Virus record (IMG/VR): IMGVR_UViG_3300047678_000069
Location: 1 to 64,000 of that record
Length of the DNA: 64,000 bases
DNA from: a virus
Direction: 5' to 3' (one strand)
Positions within the stretch are counted from its first letter, which is position 1. Every line of letters begins with the position of its first letter. The notes beneath the pieces are model-generated. The model was not told the origin of the DNA. It saw only the letters and a program-made list of their open reading frames with translations, and searched no databases. A program made the translations under genes and the position numbers. Positions 5,373-61,303 of this stretch are shown here, one piece after another.

Positions 5373-6295
5373 TTGTTCTTCTCTGATTTGGTGGATTTGG
5401 TGGATTTGGTGGATTTTGGTTTGGTTTGGGTACGCTTTCGGGATGATTTTTTATCAGGCTTCGGTTGCATTTCCTGAGGAAGAGCCGCGATGACTTTATC
5501 GACCGTGATGATTCCGTTTGGGTAATACTTTGATGGGTCTTGACACTTCATCTTGCGAAACTCATTACGTGCCCACTGTGCTTTGATTAGAGGGAACAGA
5601 TTCTGCATCTTTTCGAAGTCGTCAGGATACAGTTTGATGAAGCGATCCAAGTTCCGGTTGTGAGGAATGCCAGCGATAGTTCTGTTTGAGATTAGGTAAT
5701 CATCAGGCAGGGCAATACCACAATCTTCAATAGTGGAAATGATCTGGTCAGTAGTCCAATCGAAACAGGGATAGAACGTTCTGACCTTTGAACGAATTGC
5801 TCCAGCGTAGGCGGGTTCACCATGCTTTGAGCCACGCTTGATGATCATCTTACGGAACATGTTGTCGTGAAGAGACAATGCGAATGCACCATACGCTTGG
5901 GGCTGGCTGTGTTTGATTCGCAAGTAATCAACGATGTCGTTGTTGGTGTATAGCCAACGATCAAGGGCTTCAATCTGGTCTTCACGTTCGATTGGCTGAT
6001 ACCACTGTCGGCCAAGAGCTCTTGAGATTTCACCATCTATGAACCGTTCGATTTTGGTTCCGAATATGTGTTCATAGTAGTCTAGTGATTCATCGACGAA
6101 TGTCAGGTTTGGGCATGAACAGCCATGATAGGGGATGATTGTATGAAAGAACTGTCTGAGCCAAATCCATGCACAGACTGAATCCTTTCCACGACTGAAT
6201 CCCAATATGCAAACTCCATCTGAACGTTTAGCGATCTCTTCACAGAGAGCTCTGGAGTCTGGTGTACCCTTTGGTTTGTAATCATCAAGCAACAT
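5369..6295 (-). CDS. PAPS reductase-family PP-loop protein
   Basis: A 308-aa PP-loop adenylyl-group enzyme. The ATP-pyrophosphatase loop LGFSRGKDS lies near residues 30-40 and is followed by the conserved hydrophobic helix and CSCPNLTFVDE. The family includes PAPS reductases and sulfur-transfer enzymes such as DndC; many phages carry one of unknown substrate. The ATG at 6295 is chosen over an upstream ATG because GGAGGG lies six bases before it. The C-terminus is a Lys/Ser/Thr repeat tail (KST repeats), encoded by repeated TGGATT triplets at 5388-5420. Confidence 0.8.
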   Translation of the reverse strand: MLLDDYKPKGTPDSRALCEEIAKRSDGVCILGFSRGKDSVCAWIWLRQFFHTIIPYHGCSCPNLTFVDESLDYYEHIFGTKIERFIDGEISRALGRQWYQPIEREDQIEALDRWLYTNNDIVDYLRIKHSQPQAYGAFALSLHDNMFRKMIIKRGSKHGEPAYAGAIRSKVRTFYPCFDWTTDQIISTIEDCGIALPDDYLISNRTIAGIPHNRNLDRFIKLYPDDFEKMQNLFPLIKAQWARNEFRKMKCQDPSKYYPNGIITVDKVIAALPQEMQPKPDKKSSRKRTQTKPKSTKSTKSTKSEKNK

Positions 6296-28115: not shown

Positions 28116-28331
28116 AACGTTTGTTGGTTGTTTGCTTGCGATTTTCGGCGAATGGTAGGGTTGGTATTTTTCGAGCACAAAATCGTCGAGACGCAAAACA
28201 CAATAAAAACACGGGTAAAGTAGTAAAAACTTTTCTGGGTTGCATTATGGTCGTTGGCTATTAATAATACGTGTCAGCTTTGTTCGCTGTGGGCAAAGCA
28301 AAACAAGTTTTTAACCGGAGTGAGTTTAGTC

Positions 28332-29924
28332 ATGCCCAAGATTACCAAAGAAGTTTCAGGAACGAAAGAAGTCAAGCCAGCAGCAAAGAAAGCTGCAAAG
28401 AAGGCTTCTGTTCCCGCCGAAACGAAGAAGGCCGCTGTTGTTGAAGCCCCTGCCAAGTCTGCTGGGAAGAAGGCTTCGAAGAAGAGCAAGGGTTCAGGGG
28501 AGATTGTTTATCCTGAACTTCGGGCTGAAGTGTACGGACCAGACAATCCGATCACTGTGGACTTGATGAAAGCGTGGTTAGGCTGGAAGGAATTGCCAGC
28601 GGATCATGAGGGCGAGTTTCTGCTGAAGGACGAAAACGGCACAAAGGTCATTTGCTTGAACAATGCAAAGAATCGACCGTATTCAGCTTCCCTCAGCAGT
28701 TTGTATGCTCAGGAGATTCTGCGGGGACACTGGAAACTGAACGGCGAAACCATGATCTTCGGTAATTATGGTCAAGCCATCGCAGTTCAGCACCGTGGCA
28801 TCGGGTTGATTCTGGCATGGCAGAAGTGGGCCAATGACAAAGCTGCATATCCCTATTGGAAGTCGGCACCAACAATTCAGTCCTTTGTTGCGTTCGGCAT
28901 TTCGGAGGATGATGAAACTGTCAACACGATTGACACTGGCAAGCCGAGAACTTTCAGCGACGCAGTGTACCGTTCGTCGTTGTTTGAGAACCTGTCTGGT
29001 TCAGCGAAGAAGAATGCCTGCAGGATTCTTGACTTTGCCGTCAGGTGCGTTTGGAACAGAACGGGTCGTGGGGTTGTTTCCTATGCACCACGAAGAACCC
29101 ACAGCGAGGCATTTGAATTCGTGAATGCTCACGAGACACTGTTGAAGTGTGTTAGGCACATCATGGAAGAAAATGACGAGAACCGTGTTGGACGATTTAT
29201 TCCACCGGGGACCGCTGCGGGTTTGATGTACATGATGGCTTGCAGCACAACCGATCGAACGGAATACGCTGCAGCAGAAAGTCCGACTGAGAACTATCTC
29301 AACTTTGAGAACTACGACAAAGCTGAAGCGTTCTGGGTTGGCCTTGCAAGTGGATCGAAGTTGTTCGCTCCGCTGAAAGCTGCAATTTCCAAGATGATTG
29401 AAGACTCGTTCGGTGGAAGCCCGATCGAACGTATCTCGTTGATTGTGTTGGCGTGGACCAGCTTCCTGAACCATGGAAAGGTTCTTGAGAAAGATCTCAA
29501 GCTGGAATATCACACGGACGAAGAAACGGGTGCCACTATGCTGATGGAATGTCCTTCGGTTGGCGGGATTGACCTTGGCAACCCTGCAGAACATGAAGAC
29601 GCTCAGGAAGCAACCCCGGAGGAAATGGAATCTACGAAGAACAAGATCAAACAGGAAAAGGCTTCCAAGGGCAAGGTGGCGAAAGGTTCAAAGCAAAAGC
29701 CAGACATGAAGAACGTAGTCTACCTGACACCGGCAGATCTCAAGGTTGGTGACAAGGTTTGGGTTGGTACGTCAAGCAGTGACGAGAACAAGTGGATGGG
29801 GATCTACCGTAGTCATTACAAACTTGCGGCTGGCCCCATTGCCAAGATCGAAGCATGTGAAGGATATGCTGGGGCTGGCAAGTTGTTTGATGCATCGTTT
29901 GAATCTTTGTACGTGATTGAATAG
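28332..29924 (+). CDS. ParB/DGQHR-like domain protein with histone-like tail
   Basis: 530 aa from the ATG at 28332 (GGAG upstream). Residues 1-55 are Lys/Ala-rich like histone tails. A ParB/DGQHR-like domain follows: NRPYSASLSSLYAQEILRG, WKLNGETMIFGNYGQA and IAVQHRGIGLILA, corresponding to the R...G.W..NGE...GQHR pattern. A large helical middle domain and a small C-terminal beta domain (LKVGDKVWVG) complete it. It may bind DNA and regulate the plus-strand block. Exact role unknown. Confidence 0.65.
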   Translation: MPKITKEVSGTKEVKPAAKKAAKKASVPAETKKAAVVEAPAKSAGKKASKKSKGSGEIVYPELRAEVYGPDNPITVDLMKAWLGWKELPADHEGEFLLKDENGTKVICLNNAKNRPYSASLSSLYAQEILRGHWKLNGETMIFGNYGQAIAVQHRGIGLILAWQKWANDKAAYPYWKSAPTIQSFVAFGISEDDETVNTIDTGKPRTFSDAVYRSSLFENLSGSAKKNACRILDFAVRCVWNRTGRGVVSYAPRRTHSEAFEFVNAHETLLKCVRHIMEENDENRVGRFIPPGTAAGLMYMMACSTTDRTEYAAAESPTENYLNFENYDKAEAFWVGLASGSKLFAPLKAAISKMIEDSFGGSPIERISLIVLAWTSFLNHGKVLEKDLKLEYHTDEETGATMLMECPSVGGIDLGNPAEHEDAQEATPEEMESTKNKIKQEKASKGKVAKGSKQKPDMKNVVYLTPADLKVGDKVWVGTSSSDENKWMGIYRSHYKLAAGPIAKIEACEGYAGAGKLFDASFESLYVIE

Positions 29925-29958: not shown

Positions 29959-30008
29959 CCCCTGTCGGTTGTTGTTGCTTGTTGGACAGCGATCGGCAGG
30001 GGTTTTTT
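29959..30008 (+). terminator. Intrinsic terminator
   Basis: A 9-bp stem (CCCCTGTCG 29959-29967 with CGGCAGGGG 29994-30002, one G-T pair) followed by TTTTTTG. It lies 35 bases past the ParB-like gene. Confidence 0.9.
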
Positions 30009-30300
30009 GTTTTTTGTTGGCAGGGTTGGCAGGGGGGTTGGTTTTGCTTGTGGGGGTTGGTTGTTTGTGGGCAGGGGAAACAATGGGTTGGCGATTGTGG
30101 GGGCTTGTGGGGCTTGTGTGGAGCTTGTGGGCAGTAAAAACGCTGGTTTTATTGGGCTTTTGCTTGTCGGCAAAAAACTTTTGGAAAAATGGTCAAATGG
30201 TTGTTGTGGGACTTTACTTCGACGACGATTTCGACGACTATTCTTTCTGCAGGACGCACATTGTTGCGAACTGTAAACGATCTTTGAAAACACAGACAGG
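30009..30300. other. G-rich gene-free island
   Basis: Part of the 596-bp gap 29925-30520. The plus strand to about 30180 is G/T-rich with repeated GGGG and GTGGGG runs, capable of G-quadruplexes; AT-rich sequence follows. Words such as GGGTTGGCGATT recur at 15000. I see no gene; a plus-strand promoter for the downstream leader must lie here or in the AT-rich end. Confidence 0.5.
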
Positions 30301-30307
30301 GTAAGGC

Positions 30308-30452
30308 TGATCGGGAAACTGGTCACTACGCTGTAGAATCAAGAACGGGTAAAACCCGTGAATCCGGCTCCTAACCAGAGAACCATCACACAGATGATGT
30401 GGAAGCCGATCGACAGGAAAGCTGATTTGCTACCAGTGGACCTGAGACGATG
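30308..30452 (+). ncRNA. Structured leader RNA upstream of hammerhead
   Basis: Consecutive local hairpins on the plus strand: 7 bp with a GAAA tetraloop (TGATCGG/CTGGTCA, 30308-30325), 4 bp (CTAC/GTAG, 30326-30336), 6 bp with 3-nt loop (ACGGGT/ACCCGT, 30345-30359) and 5 bp (CATCA/TGATG, 30384-30399). No ORF crosses it convincingly. It leads straight into the hammerhead ribozyme. Confidence 0.5.
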
Positions 30453-30505
30453 AAGCGTAGCATGGTGTGTACCATGCCTGATGATTCGAAAACGATGAAA
30501 CGCTT
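30453..30505 (+). ncRNA. Hammerhead ribozyme, type III
   Basis: All core elements are present in order. Stem III strand AAGCGT (30453-30458), cleavage-site A (30459), closed stem I GCATGGT/ACCATGC with GTGT loop (30460-30477), core CTGATGA (30478-30484), stem II TCG/CGA with AAAA loop flanked by a U-U pair (30485-30496), core GAAA (30497-30500; its last A pairs in stem III), and stem III return ACGCTT (30500-30505). Predicted self-cleavage is after 30459 (triplet GUA). The SD AGAGGA and ATG 30521 follow at once. The U-U at position 10.1-11.1 is unusual. Confidence 0.8.
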
Positions 30506-30520
30506 TTAGAGGACATGACA

Positions 30521-30796
30521 ATGACTATTGAAACCGAAGTTTACTTGATGAGCCAGTTCCGTGTAGAACCGAACATGGTTCAAGTTTGTGTTGAAGAAGG
30601 GTACTACTATACTCAACGTGGCTTTGTGATTCAAGGGTTGTCTGAAGGGGTTCACTGCTATGAATTCCAGCGGGTGTTCCAGACCGAACAGTTGGCTCTT
30701 GACAAGGTTGATCAACTCGAACGACTGGTTAATGCGACCAAGGTTGATGGACTGAAAGTTACCGAGGACTGGAATTACATCGGGTCGTCAACATAG
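30521..30796 (+). CDS. Hypothetical protein behind the ribozyme (91 aa)
   Basis: The ATG at 30521 has AGAGGA seven bases upstream. A mixed alpha/beta soluble protein, MTIETEVYLMSQFRVEPNM onward, acidic. Its message would start at the hammerhead cleavage site. Unknown family. Confidence 0.7.
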   Translation: MTIETEVYLMSQFRVEPNMVQVCVEEGYYYTQRGFVIQGLSEGVHCYEFQRVFQTEQLALDKVDQLERLVNATKVDGLKVTEDWNYIGSST

Positions 30797-30810: not shown

Positions 30811-30846
30811 AAGGGGGGTGACCATCGTGGTCGCTCCCTTCTTCTT
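30811..30846 (+). terminator. Imperfect terminator hairpin before 138-aa gene
   Basis: AAGGG...GACC and GGTC...CCCTT form an interrupted stem with loop ATCGT, followed by CTTCTTC. A related hairpin with a CATCGTG loop lies at 33860. It sits 24 bases before the next start. Confidence 0.5.
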
Positions 30847-30868
30847 CAATAGAAGTGAGGATGTTCCA

Positions 30869-31285
30869 ATGTTGAGTTTAGAATTCGTACTGGCTGGTCG
30901 AGCAGTGTTCACCGTCAACAATGACAAGGGCGACCACTACACTTTCAAGGTGGTCAAGAAGGAAACGGCTTCAATGGGGCCGATCTGGTTTGCAATGCTG
31001 CTGACTGGTCCTGACAATACAAATGACTACACCTACATGGGGTGCATTGATGCTCAGCTTGGTTTCAGACTTACCGGCAAGTCAAAGTTCAAGATGGACA
31101 GTGTTCCGGTCAAGGTACTGGTCTGGACCCTTCGACATGTTTTCATGATGCTGGAACTTCCGGCTGGTTACAAGATCCACCATGAAGGAAAGTGTGGTCG
31201 CTGTGGTCGAGCTTTGACTGTACCTAGTTCTGTGGAAAGTGGGATTGGTCCTGAGTGTGCCAAAATCATGATGGGAGTATGCTGA
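30869..31285 (+). CDS. DUF6011-like zinc-ribbon protein
   Basis: 138 aa from the ATG at 30869 (GAGGA upstream). The C-terminal zinc site CGRCGRALTVPSSVESGIGPEC is the DUF6011-type motif found in many phage and plasmid proteins. The N-terminal part is beta-rich (FVLAGRAVFTVNNDKGDHY). Probably nucleic-acid or protein binding. The stop overlaps the next ATG. Confidence 0.75.
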   Translation: MLSLEFVLAGRAVFTVNNDKGDHYTFKVVKKETASMGPIWFAMLLTGPDNTNDYTYMGCIDAQLGFRLTGKSKFKMDSVPVKVLVWTLRHVFMMLELPAGYKIHHEGKCGRCGRALTVPSSVESGIGPECAKIMMGVC

Positions 31286-31617
31286 TGAAGACTAAAACCG
31301 CCGTTCAATGCTGTTCATGTCACAGGGCAACAGCCGAAATGGAAATTGGGTCAAACCAAGTATGCTGGAATTGCTGGAAAGCCTTGAAGCAATACAGCAT
31401 ATGCTCAATCTGCCGAAAGGTGTTGAGCAAAACGCTAGCAGACCTTGCATTCAAACGTCATACTGTTTCCTGTTGTAGTCGAAAAGCCTGCAAGATTGAA
31501 GCAGATGTTGCGGTTGGTCTGCTGTGCTGTAACAAAGCAAAGAAGATCAATTGTGTTTGTGTTCGGGCTTACAAGTGTCCTGTTCATGGTGAGTTCCATG
31601 TTGGGTCGCACGATTAG
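31285..31617 (+). CDS. Cys-rich multi-zinc protein (110 aa)
   Basis: The ATG at 31285 has GGGAG seven bases upstream. It has three Cys clusters: CCSCH with CWNC, CSIC with CCSRKAC, and the late CCNKAKKINCVCVRAYKCPVH. It looks like stacked zinc ribbons. Coupled to the DUF6011 gene. Function unknown, likely nucleic-acid binding. Confidence 0.7.
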   Translation: MKTKTAVQCCSCHRATAEMEIGSNQVCWNCWKALKQYSICSICRKVLSKTLADLAFKRHTVSCCSRKACKIEADVAVGLLCCNKAKKINCVCVRAYKCPVHGEFHVGSHD

Positions 31618-31674
31618 TTGTTGGGTTATAGTTGTGTGAGTTTGTTCTTTTCCTTACTTGAAAGTGAGTTTACG

Positions 31675-32859
31675 ATGGCTGCGGTTATTGCTGATATTGC
31701 TGCTGAGATTGTTACGTTCCTTCAGCAAAATGAAACTGAATGGTTCACTGAAGAACAAGTATATCAACAATTGCGTCACTTGGTTGGCGATCGAAAAGGT
31801 GACTACCATGTGACCTATCCTTTGAGAGCCTTGGTTGGGGCTGGTGTGCTGAAGGGGACTGTTCGAAATGGCAAGGTGGTCAAGTGTTCCTTCAAATCTG
31901 CCACAGACAGTTCAGGGGTTGAAACGGTTCCCAAAGCTGACATGATGAAGCTTGTTTCAACTGTTCGAAGCCAGTTCGAAAAGCAAGTGACCGACCTGAC
32001 CGAAAAGGTTGGAACCCTGACCGCCGAAGTTGCCAAACGCCAGTCAGCAACACGGGTTGCTCGGATCGACGTTTACCGTGGCAAGACCCTTGAACGAAAG
32101 ATTGAAGGGATCTTTCATGCAACGTTTGAAGAGATTCTGGATCTGGGAAATGCCCGTGAACCGATCTTTGCATACGGTCCCGGCGGATCTGGCAAGTCGA
32201 CCATTGGTGAACAGCTTGCCGAAGCTTTGGGGTTATCGTTCCACATGATTTCCTGCTCTTCAGGGATGACTGAGGGTCAGGTGTTGGGTCGGTTGCTTCC
32301 AGTGGGGACCAACGGCAAGTTTGAATTCGTTGGTACAGAATTCCTCAACGCCTTTGAAAACGGTGGGGTGTTTCTGGCTGATGAGATTGACGCTGCTGAC
32401 CCTAACACCTTGCTGATCTGGAATTCAGCTTTGGCGAATGGCAGGATCAGTCTGCCTAATCGGCCAAAGAAACCGATGGCAGTGATGCATGAAGATTTCG
32501 TGTTCATTGCTGCAGCGAACACCCTTGGCGGTGGGGCTGACCGGATGTATTCTGGACGCAACAAATTGGACGGGGCGTTCATGGACCGTTTTTGCTGCAG
32601 CAAGGTTATGATTGGTTATGATCCGAACCTTGAAGAACAAGTCTGTCCTGATGTAGAACTCAGAACAAGGCTTCTGGCTTACAGAGCCAACCTTGAAGCC
32701 AACCGGCTTGAGCGAATCATCAGCACTAGGTTCATGGCGAAAGCCTACAAAGCCAAACAGCGTGGGTGGTCAGACGAGAAGATTGATGAAACCCTGTTTC
32801 GGGGATGGCGTGAAAACGAAATCAATCTGGTCAAGCAAGGTGTTCGAAAGTCCTTCTGA
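31675..32859 (+). CDS. CobS/MoxR-like AAA+ ATPase with N-terminal winged helix
   Basis: 394 aa from the ATG at 31675. Residues 1-75 look like a winged helix, and 95-122 a coiled coil. The AAA+ core has Walker A GPGGSGKS (168-175), Walker B GVFLADEID (231-239) and sensor FIAAANT. CobS/MoxR ATPases act as chaperones with a VWA-domain partner, and the next gene encodes a VWA-like protein. Confidence 0.85.
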   Translation: MAAVIADIAAEIVTFLQQNETEWFTEEQVYQQLRHLVGDRKGDYHVTYPLRALVGAGVLKGTVRNGKVVKCSFKSATDSSGVETVPKADMMKLVSTVRSQFEKQVTDLTEKVGTLTAEVAKRQSATRVARIDVYRGKTLERKIEGIFHATFEEILDLGNAREPIFAYGPGGSGKSTIGEQLAEALGLSFHMISCSSGMTEGQVLGRLLPVGTNGKFEFVGTEFLNAFENGGVFLADEIDAADPNTLLIWNSALANGRISLPNRPKKPMAVMHEDFVFIAAANTLGGGADRMYSGRNKLDGAFMDRFCCSKVMIGYDPNLEEQVCPDVELRTRLLAYRANLEANRLERIISTRFMAKAYKAKQRGWSDEKIDETLFRGWRENEINLVKQGVRKSF

Positions 32860-32915
32860 AAGTGGTGTTGTGTTTGTGAGTGTGTTTTCTTTAATCCTAG
32901 TTCTGGAGAATGATC

Positions 32916-33770
32916 ATGAGTATCAAAAGCAATGCCCTGAAAATCACAACCCGTTCCGGCCACGAGATCTTCCGGTTCGAATCTGTTGCAGCGATGGATG
33001 GTTATGTTGACAAGACCATTCGTGGGCCAGAATTCTTCACAACAAATCCTAGTTTCACTGGACGGGAATTCAATAGTTGGGAACAGCTTCAAGAAGCCTT
33101 GAACAAAGCGTGGGAAGAGGGTATCGAAATTGTTGAAGCGTTTGTGACACGTCTCCGGAAGCTTGAATGGCCTGAGATCAAGGAAGTAAAGGCTCGCAAG
33201 GTTTACAGCACAGAAGGTGACGAAGTTGATTTCGATCGGCTTCATGCTGGTGTTCCAGAATTCTTCACGAAGATCGAACGTGAAAAGACTGGACCAGCAA
33301 CTGTGACCGTGGTGATTGATAACACCACTGCAGGATACATGGATTCGGAGGACATTCTGTGGCGTGGGGCTGCTGCTCTGGCGTTCACTGCTCTGCTGGA
33401 AGAAAAGGGGTATGGCGTTGAATTGTGGGTCACTAATGGCTCAAGACTCTACGCTTACCATCCAGACCGTGGTGTCATGACAGCAACGTGCCTGAAGCGT
33501 GCTGGTGATCCACTCGACATGAGCACCTTGACCTCAGTGGTCAGTGGTTGGTTCTACAGGACGGAAACGTTTCAGCTTCTGCACACAATCTGTGACCACC
33601 AACAGAAGGTCATGACTTCTGCGTACGGGAGGGTTCATTCCCCAACGTCAGAAGATCTTGACATGTTCACGGGTGATCAGAAACGGGTTTATGTTTCTGG
33701 GGTGTTCAGTTTCAGCGGTGCAGCAGACCTGATCGGTGATGAACTGAAAAGGATCTCAGTCGAAGATTAG
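32916..33770 (+). CDS. VWA-like partner protein of CobS-like ATPase
   Basis: 284 aa from the ATG at 32916 (GGAG seven bases upstream). The region FDRLHAGVPEFF, then ATVTVVIDNTTAGYMDSEDILWRG and YGVELWVTNGS, resembles divergent von Willebrand A domains next to CobS-like ATPases in phages (DUF7192-like, from memory). A canonical DxSxS MIDAS is replaced by IDNTTAG. Probably substrate adaptor for the ATPase. Confidence 0.65.
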   Translation: MSIKSNALKITTRSGHEIFRFESVAAMDGYVDKTIRGPEFFTTNPSFTGREFNSWEQLQEALNKAWEEGIEIVEAFVTRLRKLEWPEIKEVKARKVYSTEGDEVDFDRLHAGVPEFFTKIEREKTGPATVTVVIDNTTAGYMDSEDILWRGAAALAFTALLEEKGYGVELWVTNGSRLYAYHPDRGVMTATCLKRAGDPLDMSTLTSVVSGWFYRTETFQLLHTICDHQQKVMTSAYGRVHSPTSEDLDMFTGDQKRVYVSGVFSFSGAADLIGDELKRISVED

Positions 33771-33783
33771 TTCCGGAGTTCGG

Positions 33784-33892
33784 GGTAGGGCACCACGTTG
33801 ATGCCCTACCTTATGGACGAACATGAAAAGACCTACGGCGGTTGAGCGATTATTCGATTGGGGCAGGCATCGTGTTTGCCCCTTTCTTTTTA
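33784..33892 (+). promoter_or_regulatory. Tandem leader hairpins with terminator
   Basis: Stem 1: GGTAGGGCA/TGCCCTACC (33784-33792 with 33802-33810). Stem 2: GGGGCA/TGCCCC (33860-33865 with 33877-33882) followed by TTTCTTTTT, an intrinsic terminator. TGCCC of stem 1 can pair instead with GGGCA of stem 2. The next start is 21 bases further on. Confidence 0.6.
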
Positions 33893-33912
33893 CACCTTAT
33901 TTGGAGTTTATG

Positions 33913-34218
33913 ATGATCTACCGAGGCTACAAAATTGAACCCTTCCCAAACAGCTACCCTTTCCCGTTTTCGTATGTTCATACAGGCTACGATGGACCGG
34001 AAGACGACCGGCATGGGATTGAGGATACTGTTCAGGAATGTAAGGATGCAATTGATGATTGGTACGACGACCAGTTGTTCTGTGAACATTGCGATTCAAC
34101 TGGCATCGTGCATGTTCCGAATCGACCCTACCCAAACGATCCGCGAAGCATTGAAGAAACGTTTTCTGAAGAATGTGAAAAGTGTTCCAAGGTCCACAGT
34201 CAATTGTTAAACCAATAG
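33913..34218 (+). CDS. Small zinc-site protein (101 aa)
   Basis: The ATG at 33913 has GGAG six bases upstream. MIYRGYKIEPFPNSYPFPFSY is followed by an acidic middle and two Cys pairs (FCEHC and CEKC), so one zinc site is likely. Unknown function. Confidence 0.65.
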   Translation: MIYRGYKIEPFPNSYPFPFSYVHTGYDGPEDDRHGIEDTVQECKDAIDDWYDDQLFCEHCDSTGIVHVPNRPYPNDPRSIEETFSEECEKCSKVHSQLLNQ

Positions 34219-34233
34219 CAGGAATTTTTAACG

Positions 34234-34428
34234 ATGGTCATGGAAGCAGAAGTCCCCACAAGTGTTCGTTTACGTCGTGCAGGATTCGATAAGTGTGGCT
34301 ATAATCCTCGAGAACGAAAATGGAAAGTTGGGTGTACCAAGTGCAAGGCACTGGTCATCAATGGAGTGCCATGCCATGAATTAAATTGTTCAAACTTTGT
34401 TAAGGCAAAAAACCGTGGGTTCAAATAA
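34234..34428 (+). CDS. Small zinc-finger-like protein (64 aa)
   Basis: Basic, with CGYNPRERKWKVGCTKCKALV and CHELNC, a likely zinc ribbon. AGGA lies ten bases before the ATG at 34234. An internal ATG at 34240 is possible. Overlaps the HTH gene start. Confidence 0.6.
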   Translation: MVMEAEVPTSVRLRRAGFDKCGYNPRERKWKVGCTKCKALVINGVPCHELNCSNFVKAKNRGFK

Positions 34429-34645
34429 GGAACTACTGACAACTGGACAAGCTGCGACCGTGATTGGCTGCAGTATCCAACATGTAAGAACTTTGATCAA
34501 CAGAAAGAAATTGCTGGCGACTTCTGTGAAAACTGTGAACGGAAGTTCAACAGGGATGGAATGGCGGATTTCAATGGATGAAGCCAAAAGGTACAGAGCC
34601 TACCAACCAAAGAAAGGATGGAAGCGTGGTCAGAAACGAAAGTGA
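34415..34645 (+). CDS. Small HTH (MerR/excisionase-type) DNA-binding protein
   Basis: 76 aa from a GTG at 34415 (AAGG nine bases upstream). The sequence ELLTTGQAATVIGCSIQHVRTLINRKKL is a helix-turn-helix of the excisionase/HTH_17 class, followed by EWRISMDEAKRY, the usual wing, and a basic tail. Likely a regulator, perhaps of the plus-strand block. Confidence 0.7.
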   Translation: MGSNKELLTTGQAATVIGCSIQHVRTLINRKKLLATSVKTVNGSSTGMEWRISMDEAKRYRAYQPKKGWKRGQKRK

Positions 34646-34847
34646 TAAGTGGCAATCAAATGCAGAATGGAACCCGTGTTACGAGTTTGAAAACAACGTG
34701 ACAACGGACACACACCAAACTAAAGAACAGGCTGAAGCTGTGTGTCGTGGGTTGATGCGTGAAGGATTGGGTTGTGGGCGTATCCACTTCCCTGTGAGAG
34801 TTTGGGTGTCTGTAAAAGAAAGTGAGCAAGATCATGCCGAAAGTTGA
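34626..34847 (+). CDS. Small phage protein (73 aa)
   Basis: GTG at 34626 with AAGGA eight bases upstream. The core ETKEQAEAVCRGL-like stretch (HQTKEQAEAVCRGLMREGLG) and FPVRVWVSV recur in phage genomes as a small conserved protein. The ends overlap both neighbours. Unknown function. Confidence 0.6.
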   Translation: MVRNESDKWQSNAEWNPCYEFENNVTTDTHQTKEQAEAVCRGLMREGLGCGRIHFPVRVWVSVKESEQDHAES

Positions 34848-45386: not shown

Positions 45387-46151
45387 TTAGGTTCCTGCGA
45401 TCAGATTGTTGGGCCAGTGTATTTCAAGTCGCATGTCAGGAGATGCAAGTGGGTCCCATTTGATGTAAGCTCCCGTGACTGTAAGTGTGACAGGGGCACC
45501 TAAGCTATCGAATCCGATTATCTGACTGCTTACGTTCTTTGACCAGAAGCCATCTCCTGAATCATAATCAAGCCAATGTTCATCAGCAGGCAGAACTGTG
45601 ACGCCATATGGCTCCTCGCTTTTCTTACTGTAAAGATTCGCGAGTGCAACCGCAACCCTTGAGGTGGTTTTCTCTCCCCCCACGATTATGTCGTATTCGG
45701 ATTCCTTATAGCAGAAGCACCCACAGACTCCTGAAATGAGAGGAGTGGTTGAAGGGCCTGCAGCAGAAGCGGCGAGCCAAACACCGTCTTTCGTTCTCAG
45801 AACTACGATCCAAGTTTGTCCTGGAATGACATTCGTTGAGATGTTGTATACCGTCTTGTCTGGTATGTCCATCGGAGTCAGATTGTTATCGATGATTCTC
45901 CAGATTTCACATTCAGCAGAACCTGGAGCATCCCCTGTTCCTGTTCCGGTTGATGTACCGGCTTGGATTGATAAAGGAGCAATTCCGTTCGATGGAGTCA
46001 GGGCAATATAAACCTCAGGAGTGAATTGATCGTCACCGGCAAGGAAGTTTGGATTCTTTGTGCCTAGGTTCTGTATTCTTTGGAGTTCGGATGAAACAAC
46101 CTGTTTGATCAGGGCCATATCCGTATCAGTGAGTAAATTCAGTTTAGCCAT
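45387..46151 (-). CDS. Putative tail protein (254 aa)
   Basis: A helical start (MALIKQVVSSELQRIQNL) is followed by a beta-rich body with GTSTGTGTG linkers and CGCFCY. Located downstream of the tape measure gene in the tail block. Family unknown; structural role inferred from position. Confidence 0.6.
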   Translation of the reverse strand: MAKLNLLTDTDMALIKQVVSSELQRIQNLGTKNPNFLAGDDQFTPEVYIALTPSNGIAPLSIQAGTSTGTGTGDAPGSAECEIWRIIDNNLTPMDIPDKTVYNISTNVIPGQTWIVVLRTKDGVWLAASAAGPSTTPLISGVCGCFCYKESEYDIIVGGEKTTSRVAVALANLYSKKSEEPYGVTVLPADEHWLDYDSGDGFWSKNVSSQIIGFDSLGAPVTLTVTGAYIKWDPLASPDMRLEIHWPNNLIAGT

Positions 46152-59147: not shown

Positions 59148-59912
59148 TTACTTCAGGGCTTTGGCAGCTTCTTCCCAATTCGTGGTCGGCGGAATCAGCA
59201 TTCCGGTCTGACTTTCTGTGGTCTTCTTATTGATGGTTGGGTTGCCTGCACCAGAGAAGTTGAATCGTGCTGAAACGCCGGGGATCTGATTACCGGGTTC
59301 AATACGATTTTTGCCATTGTTGGCCACGGGTTCTGGCTTCTTCGGAATCAGACTGACCATGACTTTCAGCTTGTTGAGAGATTCACCGGCAAGGTTTGCA
59401 ACCATTCCCTTCTTCTCTCGATCGTTGAGATCGGAGTTGTCGATCAACTTCTTGATCAATTCAGCTTTCTGATCGTTCATGACGTTTGCTGCATTAGCAA
59501 CAACTTCCTGAACTTCAGCGGGGGCTGAATTCATCCACTCGTCGAACGACTGTGGCTTTGACTGTGGCTTTGGTTGACTTGCGGAACCGCGATTCCCAGT
59601 CATTGGCTTTTCACCTTTCTTTTTGTTGTGGGAAGCACCGCACTTTGAGCAAACCATCCCATCGCCGTTGCCGGTCGGGGTTTCATCTTCATTGGTGACA
59701 TCTGTTTCATCAGAACCAGAATCGTCGTCATCAATATCGTCATCATCATCATCATCATCGTCTGGTTCAGTGTTGAGGGTTGCGTCTGCGAAATTCAGAA
59801 GAGCAACATCGGTCATGGCTTCGATCGCGGGCTTACCATCTTCGGTGATGATTTGATTCGCGACCAGCGATTCAACAATTTCCTGACGATCTTCAGGAGT
59901 CAACTTTGCCAT
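59148..59912 (-). CDS. Scaffold-like acidic protein (254 aa)
   Basis: The ATG at 59912 (GGAGAG upstream) is preferred. An acidic Asp run from ATC repeats (59735-59763), a CSKCG pair, and a helical C-terminal part (IKKLIDNSDLNDREKKGMV) resemble a scaffold. Lies between DUF2213 and capsid genes. Confidence 0.65.
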   Translation of the reverse strand: MAKLTPEDRQEIVESLVANQIITEDGKPAIEAMTDVALLNFADATLNTEPDDDDDDDDDIDDDDSGSDETDVTNEDETPTGNGDGMVCSKCGASHNKKKGEKPMTGNRGSASQPKPQSKPQSFDEWMNSAPAEVQEVVANAANVMNDQKAELIKKLIDNSDLNDREKKGMVANLAGESLNKLKVMVSLIPKKPEPVANNGKNRIEPGNQIPGVSARFNFSGAGNPTINKKTTESQTGMLIPPTTNWEEAAKALK

Positions 59913-59974: not shown

Positions 59975-61303
59975 TCAGTATTTCCCTCGACCCGTCAAAA
60001 GTTTGCGAGCCGTTTTCTTGTCACCTGATTCGTGTGCCTTCTTGACTTTCGCAACTAAGGACTTCACACGTTCAGCCGGAGTTCTTGTGTCTTTTGCTGG
60101 GAGCTTTGAAGCTCGAGCCGTCTTTCGATCCTTTGAAGCTTTTGCTCCAGCAGATTTCTTTTTGGCCATTGCCTCTTTGCGATCCTGATTCTTCGAACTC
60201 TTTTCAAAAGCCTTGCGATCGGCGTGGTCTTTGAAACCTTTCTTCTTCGCGATTAGATCTTGAGTGGCAGAACGCTTTGAAGTTGACTTTGAACTAGCCT
60301 TGGTCTTCTTGGCAGCCCTTACCGTTTTCTTGACCTTTTCTTTCTGAGTCTTCGCAGTCTTTGCGTCACGATGGGCTTTCAGCTTGGCTTGGAGTTTCTT
60401 CAGGCGATCGACAGACCTTTGTTTTGAAGAGGTCTTGACTTTTCCCTTTCCAGTTTTCGGTTTCATTGAAGATCTTGCAGTGGGTCGCTGTGGTGGCTTT
60501 GCTGCAGGTTTCTTTCCGAGACCAATTTTCTTCTTGAGACGATCAATCAGATTCTTGGCAGAAGATTTCAGTTGATGACCAACCGCTCTTGCTCCCGCCT
60601 TTAATGCTGCCCCACCATGATGTCTCGCCAGCATTGCAGCTTTACGGGATTCTGGTGACCAGTTGTAAGTGGGGAAATCGTCATTGTTATTCGGCTTCGG
60701 CTTTTCATTCGCGTTCGCAGTAACTCCAAGACCACAACCATCGCTGATCGAACAAGCACCAACTTCATCAGGAAGGATCGCCAGATGATCGGGAACGTAT
60801 CGACGAGCAATCTTGTCATAAGGCTTTCCGTTGAACGTTGCTCCGGCTGGAGCAGGATCGTTTCTTGTGAAAAGGCCAGTTGACAATTCAACTTGTTCGC
60901 CACGTTCAATTGCCGAAATAATTCGGCTGTCAATCTTCCTGCAACGTTCAATGTCGATCCAAGCTTCCGCTGCAAGAATTCCCTTTTCAGTGACTCTCGA
61001 ATTTAGAACAGTGCCAATGCCTCTTGCATTGAGAACTCCGGGGTCACGAGCAGAGATTGCTTTACCATCTCTGAACGGGTGATAAACGACAAGAGGCATT
61101 CCATTCCATGCAGAATGATTCTTGACTATTTCTTCAGGCGGATAAAGCAGACTTCCTCTTGAGCCGTTTAATACGCCGGGAACGATCATCGAAACTGGAA
61201 CAACATAATGAGGACGACCATGAAGTTCTTCTTTCCTGATATTCCCGCAGCGATTCGCGGTAAGGTAAGCGAACGGTTTTTGAATCATTGAAGAGTTTTT
61301 CAC
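59975..61303 (-). CDS. DUF2213-like head protein with Lys-rich tail (442 aa)
   Basis: The N-terminal ~190 residues match DUF2213: VPGVLNGSRGSLLYPPEEI, GTVLNSRVTEKGILAAEAWID and VPDHLAILPDEVGACSISDGCG, a putative prohead protease/scaffold region. The next 240 residues are Lys/Ala/Ser-rich, like a histone tail. GTG start at 61303; the ATG at 61288 is an alternative. Confidence 0.75.
   Translation of the reverse strand: MKNSSMIQKPFAYLTANRCGNIRKEELHGRPHYVVPVSMIVPGVLNGSRGSLLYPPEEIVKNHSAWNGMPLVVYHPFRDGKAISARDPGVLNARGIGTVLNSRVTEKGILAAEAWIDIERCRKIDSRIISAIERGEQVELSTGLFTRNDPAPAGATFNGKPYDKIARRYVPDHLAILPDEVGACSISDGCGLGVTANANEKPKPNNNDDFPTYNWSPESRKAAMLARHHGGAALKAGARAVGHQLKSSAKNLIDRLKKKIGLGKKPAAKPPQRPTARSSMKPKTGKGKVKTSSKQRSVDRLKKLQAKLKAHRDAKTAKTQKEKVKKTVRAAKKTKASSKSTSKRSATQDLIAKKKGFKDHADRKAFEKSSKNQDRKEAMAKKKSAGAKASKDRKTARASKLPAKDTRTPAERVKSLVAKVKKAHESGDKKTARKLLTGRGKY

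Follow-up and report, generated by a model that had tools for sequence, protein, structure and literature searches.

Between a long non-coding leader and a cassette of small genes, a phage genome from IMG/VR carries a short stretch of RNA-coding sequence that resembles a hammerhead ribozyme (HHR), which raises the question of whether the element is a genuine self-cleaving RNA and, if so, what its cleavage would do for the message behind it. The stretch of DNA analyzed here, termed the window, comprises the first 64,000 nucleotides of the 65,941-base virus record IMGVR_UViG_3300047678_000069. The record contains siphophage-type genes, among them those for terminase, tape measure, head proteins, DNA polymerase, Sak4, and a RuvC-like resolvase. 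Up to position 28201, its main genes are encoded on the minus strand, and from 28254 onward comes a plus-strand block that opens with a 556-aa ORF (28254-29924, +; PHROG 5931, unknown function) that is a conserved anchor gene in relatives. This gene is followed by a strong terminator-like hairpin of 18 pairs and a T run (29959-30002, +), the leader (30003-30451, +; ca. 450 nt lacking a convincing gene), the ribozyme, and a 91-aa ORF of unknown function with a weak match to PHROG 31531 (30521-30796, +), which an in-frame ATG at 30515 would lengthen to 93 aa. The remaining accessory cassette (30818-34645, +) encodes a DUF6011 protein, a 120-aa protein, a MoxR/AAA_5 ATPase, a DUF7192 protein, small ORFs, and an HTH_17 protein, beyond which a UvrD-like helicase gene is located at 34822.

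Judging from the terminator-like hairpin, transcription of the leader may either start anew or arrive from upstream by read-through; no sigma-70-like promoter was detected within the leader. Directly behind the hairpin, a tract at 30003-30180 is G/T-rich and C-poor on the plus strand, with a GC skew of up to 0.63 and imperfect TTGTGGGCAGGG repeats. Matches to the C/D-box families sR11 and sR30 (E 0.03 and 5.7) were dismissed as chance hits to archaeal, sequence-only models, and blastn of the leader matched no phage relatives.

The ribozyme occupies positions 30452-30506 (+) and reads GAAGCGU-A^GCAUGGU-GUGU-ACCAUGC-CUGAUGA-U-UCG-AAAA-CGA-U-GAA-ACGCUUU, where the caret marks the predicted cleavage point. 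An alignment to the Rfam family RF00008 (Hammerhead_3) and the minimum free energy (MFE) fold agree on the 5′ strand of stem III (30452-30458, with U16.1 at 30458), the stem I hairpin GCAUGG UGUGUA CCAUGC (30460-30477), and the 3′ strand of stem III (30500-30506, with A15.1 at 30500). The core segments CUGAUGA (30478-30484) and GAA (G12 A13 A14, 30497-30499) as well as H17, an A at 30459 that forms a GUA site with a predicted cut at 30459/30460, can be read directly from the sequence and recur in the alignment. Stem II (30485-30496) consists of a U·U mismatch at 10.1-11.1, UCG paired with CGA, and an AAAA loop, as recovered by RF00008, the MFE fold, and the covariance model R1 introduced below. 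All core letters are thus intact: C3 U4 G5 A6 N7 G8 A9, G12 A13 A14, the A15.1-U16.1 pair, and H17. A first-pass annotation had proposed a complete type III hammerhead in a phage gene leader, and the end-to-end RF00008 match, the fold, and R1 bear this out. Its order and spacing of the core, GUA triplet, 7-bp stem I, and short stem II stand as well, while its 6-bp stem III is present and becomes 7 bp if the G-U pair 30452-30506 is counted. The 5′ end that it placed at 30460 would be the correct one for this architecture. It had also put the gene start immediately behind the ribozyme, and there we find a Shine-Dalgarno (SD) sequence AGAGGA (30508-30513, +) 7 nt before the ATG at 30521, i.e., a same-strand start codon within a few tens of nucleotides.

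The MFE structure of the element is exactly that of a hammerhead (−16.2 kcal/mol, z −3.55), with three stems of which stem III is open, and none of 200 shuffled sequences was as stable. The fold is retained within a 281-nt context, and in longer contexts helices I, II, and III are paired in the predicted ensemble with mean probabilities of about 0.96, 0.5, and 0.67. Stem II, with just three Watson-Crick pairs, is accordingly predicted to be paired about half the time. The G10.1-C11.1 pair that closes stem II is highly conserved in type III hammerheads, though not strictly defining; in the window it is replaced by U-U.

RF00008 matches the element over its full length with 33.4 bits, corresponding to E = 2.4e-5 when 601 bases are searched against all of Rfam and 6.2e-7 when the 66-kb genome is searched against this family only. 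The first-pass annotation had named this search as its check; the match was obtained, yet it lies under the gathering score of 48.5, which is a curation cut-off rather than a defining property of type III hammerheads. At that cut-off, none of the hammerheads in 12 phage loci known to carry them is reported, and that of Pseudomonas phage PaP3 is missed. Taking the absence of a significant covariance-model match as refutation, as had been proposed, could therefore have misled, given that the threshold misses the phage type III hammerheads examined. These results indicate that the threshold hides such ribozymes and that their number is underestimated.

By a Monte Carlo estimate, chance would supply equally complete motifs at a rate of about 2e-5 to 1.5e-4 for each genome. 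The window holds one further CTGATGA..GAAAC match, at 59680-59713 on the minus strand, which is of the kind that chance predicts. Since windows such as this one were presumably screened in number, we sought independent evidence. Exact-pattern scans of IMG/VR with GCGTA..CTGATGA..GAAACGC and GCGTC..CTGATGA..GAAACGC, followed by stem tests on 1.5 Mb of loci, yielded about 30 distinct type III hammerheads, with some phages carrying two to four. The covariance model R1, derived from an alignment (A1) of 21 other hammerheads, two of them from bacterial contigs, and leaving the window out, scores the window copy at 56.7 bits (E 1.3e-15, full length), a value somewhat inflated by ascertainment as the search pattern fixed the stem III letters. 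For the same reason, and because loci were chosen for complementarity, the 99% pairing in the alignment arises partly by construction. In bacterial genomes, 55 of 57 pattern matches failed the stem tests; the two complete type III hammerheads come from Pedobacter (L115) and Chitinophaga (L121), both Bacteroidota.

Of the 29 distinct type III hammerheads sampled at viral loci, the window's included, 20 are followed within 60 nt by an ORF of at least 40 aa whose start codon has an SD before it; for positions drawn at random from these loci, the share is 17% (p about 1e-9). A close counterpart in this set is a copy at position 6151 of phage L087, which resembles the window ribozyme in U10.1-U11.1, an AAAA loop II (stem II UUCC AAAA GGAU), and H17 = A; it has a UGAG loop I and is followed by a small ORF. 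Unlike the window phage, L087 carries four hammerheads, which precede ATGs without an SD, and the three siblings of the 6151 copy have G-C at 10.1-11.1. Another locus, L065, combines A-A with an AAAA loop II.

Several variations on this theme recur. In L072 (hammerhead at 284), L086, L088, and L092 (1748), loop II contains an SD-like AGGAG or GGAGG, and an ATG either falls at the 3′ end of stem III or follows it immediately. An extra nucleotide (U, once C) separates A9 from stem II in L047, L061, L072, L077, L078, L085, L088, and L092:2161, a type III variant of the pattern CTGATGA-T-GGCC..GGCC-GAAA that recurs among phages. Type I hammerheads, with stem III closed by a hairpin, stand directly before the SD and ATG of small ORFs in L010, L016, L031:9348, L043, and L058; in L010, the loop II sequence TTGGTT may pair with a downstream AACCAA. 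At L020:191, L024:4876, and L048:3171, near-identical upstream sequences and a type I hammerhead precede three different small ORFs, an arrangement that, judged by sequence, resembles a leader cassette of promoter and ribozyme that can be reused.

Whether the ribozyme keeps its place in related phages was addressed by protein searches in IMG/VR. Those with the 93-aa, 556-aa, and MoxR proteins found no close relatives, and a search with the capsid protein gave relatives at 36-61% identity. RF00008 had no matches among the latter. R1 produced one good match, in relative G005 (60197-60246, −; E 6e-5), with the sequence CGGGU-U^GGUGGGG AUUGGUA CCCUACC-CUGACGA-GU AACCAA AC-GAA-ACCCG followed by AAGGAGAUAGUAAUG. 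This ribozyme has all core letters, a 2-bp stem II, and a GUU site, and lies 13 nt before the ATG of a 68-aa ORF. It is located 626 nt past the homolog of the 556-aa gene on the same strand, compared to 528 nt in the window, and both phages share the gene order UDG-RuvC, 556-aa gene, cassette, HTH, helicase. No similarity was detected between the 68-aa and 91-aa ORFs, nor any common sequence between the two leaders. Upstream of the syntenic ribozyme, the leader (L211:13249-13770, −) folds better than shuffled sequences (z −3.6) and has no Rfam match. Weak R1 matches in G004, G008, G009, and G015 and a second one in G005 (E 0.005-0.6) lack core letters and were rejected, leaving no convincing hammerhead by RF00008 or R1 in capsid-protein relatives other than G005. 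In G006 and G011, the helicase gene follows within about 0.5-1 kb of the 556-aa homolog and no hammerhead was seen. The comparison reads as a hammerhead of constant location whose stem sequences and downstream genes have been replaced; one such pair is suggestive of selection, not proof.

With the motif, its fold, and its conserved position established, and with a near-identical phage ribozyme reported active elsewhere, the window element is a genuine type III hammerhead and very probably active. We consider it highly likely that the leader of the cassette's first gene cleaves itself through this ribozyme of the PaP3 subtype, whose cut would yield a defined, probably decay-resistant mRNA 5′ end. 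In this process, the nascent RNA would fold, and the 2′-OH of A30459 would attack its own 3′ phosphate, cutting between 30459 and 30460. The leader of about 0.45 kb would be released with a 2′,3′-cyclic phosphate, and the message, which covers the 91-aa ORF and the genes that follow, would begin with a 5′-OH at the first nucleotide of the stem I hairpin, 61 nt ahead of the ATG. Ends of this kind, with a 5′-OH and a hairpin, are expected to resist 5′-end-dependent decay. The likely benefit would be such a hairpin-capped end of defined position on a message freed from its leader. What we infer from these features is that the window copy cleaves itself, how this would affect mRNA stability, and when the genes would be expressed.

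The same arrangement could be read the other way round, with a functional leader RNA (about 30003-30459) as the product that matters, its 3′ end trimmed by the ribozyme, and the message as by-product. The length of the leader and its lack of coding capacity, in the window as in G005, together with the stable predicted fold of the G005 leader, fit such a role. That the two leaders have no detectable sequence in common, that the window leader folds only modestly (30240-30450, z about −1.8) and matches no Rfam family, and that hammerheads sit right at the start codon in PaP3 and many other phages make it quite improbable. A regulated switch, in which translation of the gene behind the ribozyme depends on whether the RNA cuts itself or is kept from doing so by a protein, ribosome, or ligand, would explain why SD and start codon lie just past stem III in the window and why some loops II harbor SD-like sequences beside the ATG. 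The window ribozyme has, however, no aptamer-like insert, and folding predictions give no clear or consistent change in SD or ATG access upon cleavage, so that a simple SD-unmasking switch finds no support and regulation of this type seems unlikely here.

A score below the Rfam gathering threshold, the U-U at 10.1-11.1, and the origin from a metagenomic phage might instead point to an inactive relic or a chance look-alike. Chance would supply such a motif about 1e-4 times or less per genome, all core letters are intact, the position is conserved in G005 with different stems, and U-U, loops, and geometry match those of PaP3 without an indel; we regard this explanation as very improbable. The reading that remains preferred, a hammerhead that sets the 5′ end of the cassette message, may extend beyond this phage. 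Tentatively, self-cleaving hammerheads could represent a common, largely unannotated 5′-end processing device of phage small-gene cassettes that keeps its place while stems and genes turn over and in which stem II sometimes also carries the ribosome binding site. The window ribozyme, its syntenic copy in G005, and the many IMG/VR leaders allow a direct test of whether hammerheads define where the small-gene messages of phages begin.

Among known systems, the hammerhead of PaP3 (Bruynoghevirus), fetched as a control, comes closest. Located at 45467-45419 (−), it reads UCGUA UCGGGA UGUGUG UCCCGG CUGAUGA UUCC UAAA GGAU GAAACGA and scores 57.1 bits with R1. The phages are unrelated and the stem sequences differ, yet the two ribozymes are equal in length part by part, with no indel in 49 nt. 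Both are type III with a GUA site, an 18-nt stem I hairpin with a UGUG-type loop, and a 12-nt stem II with U10.1-U11.1 and an A-rich tetraloop, directly ahead of a start codon; by sequence, the loops of window and PaP3 are UGUGUA and UGUGUG (loop I) and AAAA and UAAA (loop II). Stem III and start codon are spaced differently: in PaP3 the ATG of orf71 comes 2 nt after the stem, in DL54 and Ka1 the ATG and the stem's 3′ end overlap, and in the window both SD and ATG lie downstream of the stem. The PaP3 ribozyme region is present in 71 Pseudomonas phage records. The relatives DL54, Ka1, and phiPA01_EW retain U-U, and Ka1 has changed both sides of stem I (UCGUAG/CUACGG vs UCGGGA/UCCCGG in PaP3); Bcep176 gave no R1 match. 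A second PaP3 hammerhead (L215, 44122 and downstream, −) reads as type I (CCCAA..TTGGG) and precedes orf66, which has AAGGA and a GTG start.

The study by Perreault et al. 2011 (PMC3088659) lists PaP3 among active core variants and describes a natural U10.1-U11.1 stem II, with U-U supporting more cleavage than any other mispair. The variant reported active is probably the 45419-45467 copy because, of the two R1 matches in PaP3, it is the only one that departs from the consensus beside the core. The U-U that the first-pass annotation had called atypical is indeed rare; it had, however, already been described (PMC3088659), and its reported tolerance and presence in PaP3 mean that it gives no grounds for exclusion. 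The gene downstream of the PaP3 ribozyme, orf71, is classed as early (PMC4707531). By analogy, the window gene may be expressed early as well; a literature search found no transcript study of 5′ ends in PaP3-like phages. According to PMC3088659, the hammerhead of haloviruses HF1/HF2 precedes a start codon by 13 nt, and its cleavage site falls within 3 nt of a mapped transcript 5′ end; by analogy, this supports 5′-end definition in the window. The window ribozyme likewise lies shortly before a start codon, and the HF1/HF2 gene is the first of an early transcript; these are, in contrast, archaeal viruses with core insertions at position 2 and a helicase gene downstream. Against the RF00008 consensus, the window copy matches over its full length and differs by U-U in place of G-C at 10.1-11.1 and by an AAAA loop II. 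It thus adds a solid example to the known PaP3-like kind rather than a new system. The accessible text of PMC3088659 proposed processing of phage transcripts and left the function of bacterial and phage hammerheads open; the more interesting lead, which goes beyond that text, is that phage hammerheads may be common heads of small-gene messages, mostly missed by the Rfam threshold.
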